The notes under the pieces were generated by a model. The model was given only the letters and a program-made list of their open reading frames with translations. It searched no databases and was not told the DNA's origin. A program made the translations under genes and the position numbers. Below are positions 3,691 to 18,373 of a stretch of 37,873 nt of DNA, piece after piece. Origin of the DNA: a virus; IMG/VR virus record IMGVR_UViG_3300025009_000254, positions 1-37,873 of that record; one strand, 5' to 3'. The first letter of the stretch is position 1; every line of letters starts with the position of its first letter.

Positions 3691-4086
3691 TTATGCCCTC
3701 GTATAATCGACCATTGCGTCGAACTGGAATTGCCAAGCATTCCCGGTTAGTTCTATATCACGTACACCATTGCAGACTATCCGCGTCACGCTTACCCCAT
3801 CGCTCCATGGGGCAAGGTGGTTCAATATCTTCCTGGCAGCAAGTGCAATTGATTTTCCTGCTTTGGTTGCACAGACAAAGTCGTATTGGATTCGAGCGGT
3901 GCCGGTGTCGAGATTGTCGAATCCCTCCTCCTCTGTTGAGTCGGATATCACGTTGTAAAATCCGTAAGGCTCGACCGCTCCATCCGGCGCGCTATAAGGG
4001 TAAAGCCCCCCGGTCAGCGTTGCCAGCCATGCGGTGCTGGCTCGGAGCTTTACGTCAAGGGCTTGTTCGATTGACGCGCTCGCCAT
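3691..4086 (-). CDS. Tail terminator/completion protein (DUF3168-like)
   Basis: A 131-residue protein in the tail terminator position, directly after the HK97 gp10-like gene and one gene before the tube region. Its layout matches DUF3168/gp17-like tail completion proteins: N-terminal helix with IEQALDVKLRAS, a middle PYGFYNVISDSTEEEGFDN segment, then RIQYDFVCATKAGKSIALAARKI and a C-terminal strand WQFQFDAMVDYTRA. It starts inside the preceding stop (TAATG). These proteins cap the finished tail tube and join it to the head connector. The family call is from memory of the pattern. Confidence 0.75.
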   Translation of the reverse strand: MASASIEQALDVKLRASTAWLATLTGGLYPYSAPDGAVEPYGFYNVISDSTEEEGFDNLDTGTARIQYDFVCATKAGKSIALAARKILNHLAPWSDGVSVTRIVCNGVRDIELTGNAWQFQFDAMVDYTRA

Positions 4087-11841: not shown

Positions 11842-13308
11842 CTATAGGCCAAGAGCGCCCGCCGATGTGCCCGCTCGGATCGGAGCCCTGCCGATCTGGA
11901 ATTGATACCCGCATGAAAGATTGTCTACCTGATCGTCATGCTCCTTGCCTAGCCCGTCAAAACGCAATAACTCATCAATCCAGTCATCATTCCACGCGGC
12001 GCGTTTGACGTGGACGTGTCCCGGCGCTTCAAATATTGGCTCAAGCGGTACTGCCCTGGTTGCCTTGTCGCCTTTGCCCATTATGACTTTATTCCAGTTT
12101 ATTTCTGGCATGGCTTTTTTCAAATACGGGTATGCATCCTTTGCGTCAAGGCTGGACTCTACGCATTGCCTTACCGTGGTTCCATCCATCCGGGCGATGG
12201 TCTTTATCTTTGCGTCACGCTCTGGGGCATCGTCTCTGGTCCGTACCACGTCGGCTATCCACAGATGGGGTACTGGATCACCTGGCCTGCGCTCGAATGC
12301 CAGTTTCGTTCCGGACGTCCAGTCTGGATCATCGCCTCCGCGCTGCTGTGCCGTGTGTGCAAGATCCCATGCCCTAATCCAGTACAAGCGCCTGTCGGAT
12401 GGAACCTCATCATACCATTCGATATTCTCGATGCTAAACCGTCCACCTGTACGGATCATAGGGTTACAGTCGAGGATTGACGAACTGGAATATTTGCCAA
12501 GTGTGGCGTATTGCCTTAAATACCACTGCTTGCCGAACCGCTCCTCAAAAAGATACTCGCCGGGATATTGCCCATCTCCGGTATAGTCTGCGGCTTTGGC
12601 TGGGAACTGCATCATTTCAAACTGCGGAAAGTCTGGATCTTCTTTCATGGCTTTTTTTATGCGCCCGGTTATATCGTCCCAGTGCCACCATGTAGCAAGG
12701 ACTATGACTATTCCAACAGGGGCGACACGGGTCATGAAGTCGTTGGTGAATGCATCCCATGCGTTATTGCGCTGTACAAGGCTTTCAGCCTCGGCCCTGC
12801 CTGACAGGTAATCGTCAAGTACGCCTAGAGCGTATCCGGATCCTGTCATGTGACCGCCTAGCCCTGTTGCCATAAGCCCGCCCCCGCAATCGGTAAGGTA
12901 GTGGTCTTTCCGGTTTGTATCTGTTGACAGTCTCAAGTTAGGGTAGATTGCCTTATATTTATCGGTGTCAATGACCCCCCTGGCAAAAGCTGAAAACTCG
13001 ACGGCCTTGTCCGCTGCGTATGAAACTTGCATGACCTCTGCGCTTGGAAACTCTCCAATAAAATGAGGCCCTAAGTATCTGGATACTATGTCTGATTTGC
13101 CTGATCGGTGGTGAACGTTGATTAAAAGATATGTTGTTTTCCCATCACGGTAATCATCAAACGCTTTATCAATCCTTGAGCATATCCGGCGGGTATGGAA
13201 ACCATGGATAAACGGCGATGATCCGCGCCAGCACGCGCCCATGAATGCCTCGTGCGACATTTGGGCATCAAGGGTTACAAGTTCTATTTCTTCAGCTTCG
13301 GTCAGCAT
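11842..13308 (-). CDS. Terminase large subunit
   Basis: The 488-residue packaging motor. The ATPase half has a Walker A variant HHRSGKS (residues 66-72), Walker B LGVLDD (161-166) and the coupling motif LATWWHWDD (204-212). The RNase H-like nuclease half starts with the first acidic motif RAWDLA (about 312-317) and continues with TTVRQCVESSLDAKDAYPYL. Length and order fit the Terminase_6/6C type. It overlaps the small subunit by 17 bases. Its TAG stop is followed in frame by sequence overlapping the portal gene, evidence that TAG is a true stop here. Confidence 0.95.
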   Translation of the reverse strand: MLTEAEEIELVTLDAQMSHEAFMGACWRGSSPFIHGFHTRRICSRIDKAFDDYRDGKTTYLLINVHHRSGKSDIVSRYLGPHFIGEFPSAEVMQVSYAADKAVEFSAFARGVIDTDKYKAIYPNLRLSTDTNRKDHYLTDCGGGLMATGLGGHMTGSGYALGVLDDYLSGRAEAESLVQRNNAWDAFTNDFMTRVAPVGIVIVLATWWHWDDITGRIKKAMKEDPDFPQFEMMQFPAKAADYTGDGQYPGEYLFEERFGKQWYLRQYATLGKYSSSSILDCNPMIRTGGRFSIENIEWYDEVPSDRRLYWIRAWDLAHTAQQRGGDDPDWTSGTKLAFERRPGDPVPHLWIADVVRTRDDAPERDAKIKTIARMDGTTVRQCVESSLDAKDAYPYLKKAMPEINWNKVIMGKGDKATRAVPLEPIFEAPGHVHVKRAAWNDDWIDELLRFDGLGKEHDDQVDNLSCGYQFQIGRAPIRAGTSAGALGL

Positions 13309-13771
13309 TGTTTATCTTGGCGGCAAGTTCGGCTATGCGTACTTTGCGCTCTGCTGCTGTCATCAATAGCGGCTCCCCGCCTGCCCCGGTAATCTCCTGT
13401 CTGTCGTGCCAGTGGTGGTTTTTTAGCCAGAAAATAGACCCCGTGCATTTATCCCTTGTGCTTAACCTGGCTTCATGCTCGGCCTCGATCTTTAGCCGCG
13501 CCCTTTTTATAAGGTCGGAAAAATCATCATCTTTTGTTTCAAGGTCGTATATCGCGCCCCTGGTATTATATCCAAGATGGTATGCAAGCCCCGCCATGGT
13601 TGCCGGGTTCTCCCTGACTATCGGGTTGCCGTTCTTGTCTACCGCTACCTGTTCTATCCCGTCGCTATTGGTGAAGGTAAGCGGAGACGGTACGCACTCA
13701 TCGAAATAGTTTTGTATCGCTTCGTCAAGCTCTGCGGCGGTTTTGTACTTTGACGGTCTGCCTGCTGGCAT
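13292..13771 (-). CDS. Terminase small subunit
   Basis: A 159-residue DNA-recognition protein. It starts PAGRPSKYKTAAELDEAIQN, has the HTH-like ATMAGLAYHLGYNTRGAIYD segment (residues about 57-76) and the family signature GSIFWLKNHHWHDRQE (about 111-126). The start at 13771 follows AGGAGAG. It selects the packaging site and recruits the large subunit. Its position immediately behind the two tRNAs makes the non-coding region upstream a candidate place for cos/pac. Confidence 0.92.
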   Translation of the reverse strand: MPAGRPSKYKTAAELDEAIQNYFDECVPSPLTFTNSDGIEQVAVDKNGNPIVRENPATMAGLAYHLGYNTRGAIYDLETKDDDFSDLIKRARLKIEAEHEARLSTRDKCTGSIFWLKNHHWHDRQEITGAGGEPLLMTAAERKVRIAELAAKINNADRS

Positions 13772-13782
13772 AATCTCTCCTA

Positions 13783-13854
13783 AGCCCCCGGAAGGAATCG
13801 AACCCTCGCCTGATGATTACAAATCGCCTGCTCTGCCTTCTGAGCTACAGGGGC
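13783..13854 (-). tRNA. tRNA-Thr (anticodon UGU)
   Basis: A 72-base cloverleaf: acceptor GCCCCTG/CGGGGGC with one GU pair, D-arm GCTC/GAGC, anticodon stem GGCGA/TCATC with one C-A mismatch, loop TTTGTAA (anticodon TGT), four-base variable region, T-arm GAGGG-TTCGATT-CCTTC, discriminator T. It reads ACA codons. CCA is not encoded. The mismatch and discriminator U make it slightly irregular but probably functional. Confidence 0.88.
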
Positions 13855-13860
13855 AAATAG

Positions 13861-13932
13861 TCGGGGCAGATGGAGTCGAACCACCCATTGACGGTATCAA
13901 AAACCGTTGACTAGCCGCTTGCCTACACCCCG
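13861..13932 (-). tRNA. tRNA-Gln (anticodon UUG)
   Basis: A 72-base cloverleaf: acceptor CGGGGTG/TGCCCCG with a C1-G72 first pair, anticodon stem ACGGT/ACCGT, loop TTTTGAT (anticodon TTG), T-arm GGTGG-TTCGACT-CCATC, discriminator A. It reads CAA and, by wobble, CAG. C1-G72 is a departure from the U1-A72 or G1-C72 usual in bacterial tRNA-Gln. It is transcribed before tRNA-Thr from the late promoter. Confidence 0.88.
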
Positions 13933-14277
13933 TAACGTTGCCCCGTGTATCGCGTCGGGGCGGCCGGGAAGTCTTTCCTGTCTGCCATCGGTTTTCAGTA
14001 AGTATGCCCACCGAAAAACGGACTACCGCGCCTTTTTCGCCGCGCTCCTTAGCTACTCCTGTTTGGCTCTGAATCGCCCCGGTTATACCAAACCAGAAAA
14101 GGCCCTTATCGACCGCACCTTAATAGGCCGTCCCAGCCGGGCACCAGCTCTTGGAAGCGGCGCGAATTGCACGCGCAAGCTGGGCAGCTTCGACTAGTGC
14201 GCTTCCATCGTCACTTTGTCGGTCCAGGCTGTGACCGCCTGTGGTATCCCACCGCTTCGGGCGCACCGTTGGCCATA
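13933..14277 (-). ncRNA. Structured non-coding leader between late promoter and tRNAs
   Basis: About 345 bases without a credible gene; the only frames are short or overlap the tRNAs. The minus strand is full of perfect stems: 14266-14261/14202-14197 (6 bp) closing a domain with hairpin 14252-14249/14244-14241; an H-type pseudoknot of 14240-14237/14229-14226 with 14235-14231/14214-14210; adjacent hairpins 14190-14186/14181-14177 and 14176-14172/14164-14160; 14039-14033/14018-14012 (7 bp); and 13960-13956/13945-13941. Large phage RNAs such as GOLLD and ROOL also lie beside tRNAs, though they are longer. A cos/pac site may overlap. Function unknown. Confidence 0.5.
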
Positions 14278-14283
14278 AACTCA

Positions 14284-14312
14284 ACTGTACCGCATGTATG
14301 GGCAGTTGTCAA
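14284..14312 (-). promoter_or_regulatory. Late-region sigma70 promoter
   Basis: TTGACA (14312-14307), 17-base spacer, TACAGT (14289-14284); start predicted near 14277. It is the only strong promoter between the early cluster and terS and would drive the structured RNA, the tRNAs and the late operon. Its -35 box overlaps the stop codon of the HExxH remnant. Confidence 0.78.
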
Positions 14313-14473
14313 GGTTTCAATCTATACCCGGCTGAATATACACCTACTGCCATTCGGTGTATCTGTTCCTCAGTTAGGCCGAGTAGTAGTTCTTCATCCA
14401 CAACGTGCATCACTTCATGCAGCAGGGTTTCATCTTGCTGCTCCTGGCTGACATCGCTGTTAGTCCTTATCAA
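14309..14473 (-). pseudogene. C-terminal remnant of a HExxH metallopeptidase-like phage protein
   Basis: The frame encodes up to 54 residues from a possible TTG at 14473: DVSQEQQDETLLHEVMHVVD, then EELLLGLTEEQIHRMAVGVY and SAGYRLKP. LLHEVMHVVD contains the zinc motif HExxH. It is the typical end of an ImmA-like phage protein family whose complete members have an N-terminal half of similar or greater length. No good start or ribosome site is present and the in-frame upstream codon is TGA, so it reads as the 3' end left by a deletion. Confidence 0.6.
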
Positions 14474-14498
14474 GGCATATGATTGGTCGCTCTTTCAT
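14460..14498 (-). pseudogene. 5' remnant of a HAD-like hydrolase gene
   Basis: GGAGGTGGAGGA precedes ATG 14498, which overlaps the preceding stop as ATGA. The reading frame gives MKERPIICLDKD and stops. Complete phage HAD-like proteins begin in the same way and continue after CLD with FDGV. This is a properly coupled gene start with its body missing, joined near 14470 to the remnant above. Confidence 0.5.
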
Positions 14499-14632
14499 TC
14501 CTCCACCTCCCCGGCAAGGATAGCGGCGCGTAGTATTTGAGTTTCGGCATGCGTCAAAAATGGTCTGCATTTTTCCACCGCCCGATCAGCCGCATCCCGG
14601 AGCCGTGCGTTCTCGGCTTCAGCGGATTTCAC
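14495..14632 (-). CDS. Possible short ORF (45 aa), perhaps the tail of the preceding gene
   Basis: From GTG 14632 this frame encodes KSAEAENARLRDAADRAVEK and ends AAILAGEVEE, with its stop overlapping the next ATG. It is in the same frame as the upstream gene, from whose TAA (14675) it is separated by 14 further open codons (KDAVVIPETIRKQI). It may be the C-terminal part of a gene starting at ATG 14737 (KEFFVMIVPDDAYIKTRLM, after AAGGAGC) that was cut by an ochre codon. A helical ENARLR segment resembles ENERLR in the upstream protein. Confidence 0.35.
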   Translation of the reverse strand: MKSAEAENARLRDAADRAVEKCRPFLTHAETQILRAAILAGEVEE

Positions 14633-14674
14633 AATCTGCTTCCGTATTGTTTCAGGAATGACGACAGCATCTTT

Positions 14675-15091
14675 TTACATAAGCCGTGTTTTAATGTAGG
14701 CATCGTCGGGCACAATCATGACAAAAAACTCTTTCATCCTTTGCTCCTTCCCCAGCGCGAGACGGGCTTTGCGTATTACGTTAAGCGTTGTTGATTTGCA
14801 TCCAACCTGTGTTGCCGCTGGAAATGCTTCCATGCCTATATCATCATCGTATAATGCAACCAATGGTTCTAGCGCCTCCCTAAGCCGTTCGTTCTCGGCT
14901 TGGAGTAGCTTGATCCACGATTCAGGATCTTCCACCCCTTCTAGCGCATTGACACAAGCCACAATGCGACGGGCGTTGGCTACTCCAATTATTTGACCTA
15001 TTTCTGGCTGCCCGTCTTGAGCAACTATTGTCCGCTGATTAGGCCAAGCCTCTTCTACCAGTTTCCATGGCCCCTTTGTATATTCACTCAT
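14675..15091 (-). CDS. Hypothetical early protein
   Basis: A 138-residue protein starting MSEYTKGPWKLVEEAWPNQR and with VANARRIVACVNALEG, a pattern shared by many small phage proteins of unknown function. A heptad-like segment LLQAENERLREALEP follows. The last 20 residues, beginning at an internal ATG with its own AAGGAGC site, may originally have been the start of a separate gene. The frame overlaps the antirepressor stop by ATGA. Confidence 0.75.
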   Translation of the reverse strand: MSEYTKGPWKLVEEAWPNQRTIVAQDGQPEIGQIIGVANARRIVACVNALEGVEDPESWIKLLQAENERLREALEPLVALYDDDIGMEAFPAATQVGCKSTTLNVIRKARLALGKEQRMKEFFVMIVPDDAYIKTRLM

Positions 15092-16558: not shown

Positions 16559-16586
16559 GTCGGGATGCCGCCCGCCTGACAAGTAA

Positions 16587-16615
16587 AATATACCACGGCT
16601 TTGATCGGCTGTCAA
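16587..16615 (-). promoter_or_regulatory. Sigma70 promoter P1 of unit A
   Basis: TTGACA (16615-16610), 17-base spacer, TATATT (16592-16587). The -35 region is part of GAATATGATTGACAG, which recurs exactly at 27013-26999 before unit C. It lies directly after the stop of the zinc protein gene. Confidence 0.75.
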
Positions 16616-18344: not shown

Positions 18345-18373
18345 ATATTAATCTTACTTTGGCATTATGTCAA
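18345..18373 (-). promoter_or_regulatory. Sigma70 promoter of the replication operon
   Basis: TTGACA (18373-18368), 17-base spacer, TAATAT (18350-18345); start near 18338, followed by AGAGGTG and the HTH gene. Confidence 0.8.

Follow-up and report, generated by a model that had tools for sequence, protein, structure and literature searches.

Rfam includes profiles for GOLLD and ROOL; the solved ROOL is 659 nt long, and GOLLD is often over 800 nt (PMC12286853). What these RNAs have in common with the locus described here is a noncoding stretch adjoining phage tRNAs. Another resemblance is to phage tRNA clusters that are transcribed together with late genes: there too, a single strand carries a promoter, an untranslated leader, the tRNAs and the late genes, and remnants of tRNAs are found in such clusters. 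The late leader of lambda (6S RNA) is likewise the untranslated start of a late transcript.

The window, i.e., the whole stretch of DNA that was analysed, was the IMG/VR virus record IMGVR_UViG_3300025009_000254 (37,873 bases). On its minus strand, replication genes and an anti-repressor are followed by broken reading frames, a promoter, an untranslated leader of ~345 nt (13933–14277), a tRNA-Gln gene with the anticodon ttg (13860–13932, Rfam tRNA match of 43.1 bits) and a tRNA-Thr gene with the anticodon tgt (13783–13854, 58.2 bits). Located 3' of the tRNAs on the same strand are the genes for the small terminase subunit (terS, 13292–13771; Pfam GP3_package, P22 gp3-like, phrog_606), the large terminase subunit (terL, 11842–13308; phrog_38), a portal protein, a Mu F-like protein, a scaffold protein and an SU10-type capsid protein. 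Based on this gene order, we interpret the locus as the start of a late operon. A preliminary description, made from the sequence alone, had placed a noncoding stretch between the promoter and the tRNAs. Both tRNAs and the promoter were found, with no convincing gene between them, and the layout supports a noncoding stretch that opens the late (packaging) operon and is probably transcribed. The best explanation of the segment, to which we assign a probability of roughly 0.6, is an ordinary late-operon 5' untranslated leader carrying one tRNA remnant. Compared with the phage tRNA clusters mentioned above, the leader is long, and its single remnant has no D-arm.

The predicted promoter is of the sigma70 type (TTGACA-17-TACAGT, 14284–14312, minus strand) and matches the consensus at 10/12 positions. 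It overlaps the stop codon of an upstream peptidase remnant, and transcription is predicted to start near 14277. The preliminary description had called this promoter strong. Both boxes are indeed present, but the −10 box TACAGT is poor, and of the minus-strand promoters whose TTGACA is perfect, six in all, this is one of the two weakest (the promoter at 18373 likewise matches 10/12 positions). From this host-type promoter, we infer, a transcript would cover the leader and both tRNA genes and continue into terS, terL and the genes for the head. Excision of the tRNAs by RNase P and tRNA 3'-end nucleases would then leave the leader as a separate 5' fragment with its end at ~13933. The feature that RNase P recognises is the stacked helix of acceptor and T-arm, so an element within the leader that possesses an acceptor stem and a T-arm (14206–14152, see below) may be another substrate of this enzyme.

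The segment had been introduced as highly structured, and we compared its folding with that of shuffled sequences. The minimum free energy of the 351-nt segment (13933–14283) was −135.5 kcal/mol, corresponding to a z-score of −1.2 relative to dinucleotide shuffles, 12 of 100 of which folded equally well. The mean z-score of 351-nt pieces across the window was −0.5 (sd 1.0), and the two halves of the segment, folded separately, had z-scores of −0.14 and −0.29. Watson–Crick stems of at least 6 bp numbered eight, versus 4.0 ± 2.1 in shuffles, and eight of the 100 shuffles reached this number. The perfect stems and the H-type pseudoknot of the preliminary description (14210–14241, minus strand; CAGGC/GCCTG, with the loop GTCAC pairing with GTGAC) can be drawn where they were placed, but they do not exceed chance expectation: H-type pseudoknots of 5 + 5 bp were present in 53% of shuffles. 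The leader folds no better than expected by chance. Its G+C content is ~0.59, compared to 0.50 in the surroundings, and stems can be drawn in a sequence this rich in G+C anyway; in a G+C-rich phage leader, they are no evidence of an ornate RNA. When the same test was applied to positions 16580–16455 of the window, the z-score was −6.5 and none of 200 shuffles folded as well, indicating that the test can detect structured RNA in this window.

A search of the interval against Rfam, which had been proposed as a check, returned the tRNAs alone, even at an E-value of 10. The identity of the leader as GOLLD or ROOL is excluded by the Rfam models together with length: the leader matches neither covariance model, and at ~345 nt it is about half as long as these RNAs or shorter. 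It also differs from both in having no unusual fold and no conserved sequence. Covariation and an abundance of pseudoknots mark the folds of GOLLD and ROOL; in the leader, fold and pseudoknots were within chance, and the searches yielded no homologue in which covariation could be looked for. Using blastn, we found only short, chance-level matches to the leader in 50,697 phage records and 72,556 plasmids. Patterns of its translated frames had no match in IMG/VR and GTDB genomes, and a pattern of the tRNA-Gln had no match in IMG/VR. With no Rfam match, insufficient length, a fold within the range of shuffles and no homologue, the proposal of an ornate RNA that is GOLLD/ROOL-like or of a new class was not borne out; the analysis does not establish the leader as a new RNA class.

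The same place was inspected in relatives. No close relatives were found when TerS or TerL was the only query. Relatives were reached through alignments and through the capsid protein; the capsid-found loci do not share the terminase region. In total, 78 IMG/VR loci were retrieved that encode a related small terminase. In locus L104, a promoter is followed by ~205 nt, tRNA-Gln (ttg), ~150 nt and terS. In L095, tRNA-Thr (tgt) is located ~150 nt before terS, and still further from terS lies a marginal tRNA (29.1 bits). In L118, a promoter is followed by a ~100-nt leader that closes with a terminator hairpin, and a second promoter stands between this leader and terS. The L118 leader (3858–3960) comprises a closing stem GGGTC/GACCC, two hairpins and the terminator-like hairpin, after which the second promoter begins. 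None of the leaders of these relatives resembled that of the window in sequence. The site before terS is thus a common one for tRNAs and noncoding leaders, which fits the interpretation of the segment as a leader and lends no support to one conserved RNA. More generally, phages with related terminase genes repeatedly place promoters, tRNAs, tRNA-like pieces or noncoding leaders before terS, and the sequences are mostly dissimilar.

Some of these phages do share sequence at this site. L104 (1201–1663) and L130 (2330–2905) have noncoding sequence in common before terS, with 102 nt at 98% identity and other parts diverged to 69%. Comparison of the leaders of L104, L130, L141, and L125 revealed a hairpin element, TGACAGCCGGGAAAGACCGGCA, with a 21-nt core. 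It was detected in 21 IMG/VR stretches, ~17 of which were distinct in surrounding sequence, while a reversed control pattern had no match in the contigs searched whole. Copies of the element (TGACAGCCGGGAAAGRCCGGCA) are located at 1404–1424 in L104, 2500–2520 in L130 and 285–305 in L141, and are also found in L179, L185, L188, L195, and others. A flanking TGACA is kept in most copies, though it lies outside the search pattern. The copies in L104, L179, L185, and L188 lie 5–16 nt upstream of tRNAs, and the flanks of the element have no obvious common fold.

These observations bear on the possibility that transcription of the window's leader from its promoter, followed by RNase P cleavage at the 5' end of tRNA-Gln, yields a dedicated, structured noncoding RNA that belongs to an undescribed class and acts independently in the infected cell. 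The promoter, the lack of a gene, the raised G+C content and the adjoining tRNAs are all in keeping with such an RNA, as is the conserved noncoding sequence before terS in some other phages with a related small terminase (L104, L130, L141 and L125). However, the conserved element of those phages is missing from the window: no copy was found near the interval, and none in the window under a longer pattern. Fold energy, stem count and the pseudoknot were all within chance, and neither an Rfam match nor a homologue in the searched collections was found. We therefore consider a dedicated RNA unlikely.

The longest perfect stem of the segment is more plausibly an acceptor stem, part of a tRNA-like element of 55 nt (14152–14206, minus strand). 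This element consists of an acceptor stem GGAAGCG/CGCTTCC, a 9-nt linker, a hairpin with a 4-nt loop, a T-arm GCGCG-TGCAATT-CGCGC and a discriminator A. It shares with tRNA (RF00005) the 7-bp acceptor stem, the 5-bp T-stem with a 7-nt loop and the discriminator A, but lacks a D-arm and has the 4-nt-loop middle hairpin in place of one with a 7-nt anticodon loop; its T-loop, TGCAATT, has a G at position 55, which is a T in tRNAs. Folded alone, the element formed the acceptor stem, one short hairpin and the T-arm (−22.2 kcal/mol). Within the fold of the whole leader, the probability of its stems was only ~0.24. By criteria written after the element had been seen, only three places on the minus strand of the window have the acceptor/T-arm geometry, namely this element and the two genuine tRNAs; the plus strand has one, and of 3000 shuffled leaders, six contained it. 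The tRNA covariance model did not report the element up to E-values of 5 and 10.

A counterpart was found in the relative L118, whose large terminase is 68% identical to that of the window. When the leader was compared with all fetched relative loci and 27 whole relative contigs, matches were at chance level except for a weak one to the T-arm and acceptor region in L118. The contig of this relative (L200) carries GCACGTTCGATTCGTGCCGCTTCCAAG, representing the T-arm and the 3' acceptor strand of a tRNA-like sequence, and GCGCGTGCAATTCGCGCCGCTTCCAAG of the window is identical to it at 23 of 27 positions. One pair of the T-stem shows a compensatory change between the window and L118, from G-C to A-T. 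In the window, the full acceptor partner GGAAGCG is present upstream of the T-arm. On the minus strand of L200, positions ~1584–1501 are tRNA-like, with an acceptor stem, a T-arm, a possible D-arm and a 20-nt loop in place of the anticodon loop; this sequence was seen neither by ARAGORN nor by the tRNA model. We also considered whether the L118 match could derive from the end of a host tRNA copied into an attP site, and did not favour this, as searches of the window contig and the L118 contig revealed no tyrosine or serine integrase, and the window element has its own 5' acceptor strand, which an attP would not have.

The tRNA-like fold at 14206–14152 is probably real. With moderate confidence, we interpret it as a decayed or reduced tRNA, and under the preferred reading of an ordinary late leader it would be what is left of an older tRNA. 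If the element were functional, the late transcript of this phage would contain a compact mimic of tRNA. A bolder version, in which the whole leader is a functional RNA built on this D-arm-less mimic, recognised by RNase P or host tRNA enzymes, released beside the tRNAs late in infection, and the first of its class with no sequenced relative, appears to us improbable.

We then asked whether the leader might be a decayed protein-coding stretch, i.e., the remains of a gene at a border between modules that had received tRNA insertions. In the frame starting from TTG at 14284 on the minus strand, the 240-nt codon-usage maximum was 0.168, compared to 0.031 ± 0.048 in shuffles, only one of 150 of which was as high. 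The RNY bias of the same frame was 0.34, versus 0.21–0.23 in the other frames. Immediately upstream, at 14313–14675, the sequence contains broken frames and a truncated peptidase remnant, as would suit such a border. On the other hand, G+C content at codon position 2 in this mildly coding-like frame was 0.59, outside the 0.37–0.47 of this phage's genes. The frame has an internal stop and continues into tRNA-Gln, and no frame of the leader had a match in any protein search. The remains of a gene are possible, yet less likely than the leader reading, and overall we regard this origin as rather unlikely.

The broken frames themselves extend over 14313–14731 on the minus strand, where a stop lies within an SD-led ORF and an HExxH peptidase has no N-terminus. 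The latter (14313–14500, minus strand), directly upstream of the promoter, is an M78/IrrE-like frame with no proper start, either a remnant or truncated. Its PHROG match was weak (E-value of 2e-5), and its Pfam M78 match was below the cut-off. These broken frames represent either a decaying module border or assembly errors.

Two further interpretations concern the position of the segment. One, raised in the preliminary description as an alternative, is that it is a cos or pac DNA packaging site just upstream of terS with no role as RNA. The segment adjoins the small terminase gene region, and the presence of tail-protein genes close to the contig's high end suggests that the assembly is circularly permuted, in which case the contig ends need not equal the genome ends. 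However, only two weak direct repeats were found near the tRNAs, rather than an iterated set, and two tRNA genes separate the interval from terS. Furthermore, the small terminase belongs to the P22 gp3 family, and the pac site of P22 sits inside gene 3. A packaging site is thus very unlikely here.

The other is that the leader has a regulatory role, controlling read-through into the late genes as in lambda 6S/Q or HK022 put. Its position between the early and late modules would be appropriate. In contrast to the lambda late leader, whose intrinsic terminator is overcome by an antiterminator, no leader terminator was found by a simple scan of the minus strand between 12500 and 16500 (detecting only loops of 3–8), and no antiterminator gene, Q-like or other, was recognised among the neighbours tested. 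We consider this kind of control highly improbable at this locus, for which the ordinary late leader with a tRNA remnant is the preferred reading.

A different part of the window (16590–16450), which includes the positions with the z-score of −6.5, is strongly structured. At 16615–16445 on the minus strand, a promoter TTGACA-17-TATATT is followed by ~125 nt with three hairpins, the last of which has a long near-perfect stem and is followed by a run of seven Ts. The element had no match in Rfam. It lies directly before a DUF5131/radical-SAM gene (16451–15765) and is a candidate for either a small RNA or an attenuator leader. It is far better structured than 14283–13933 and is a much better RNA candidate.
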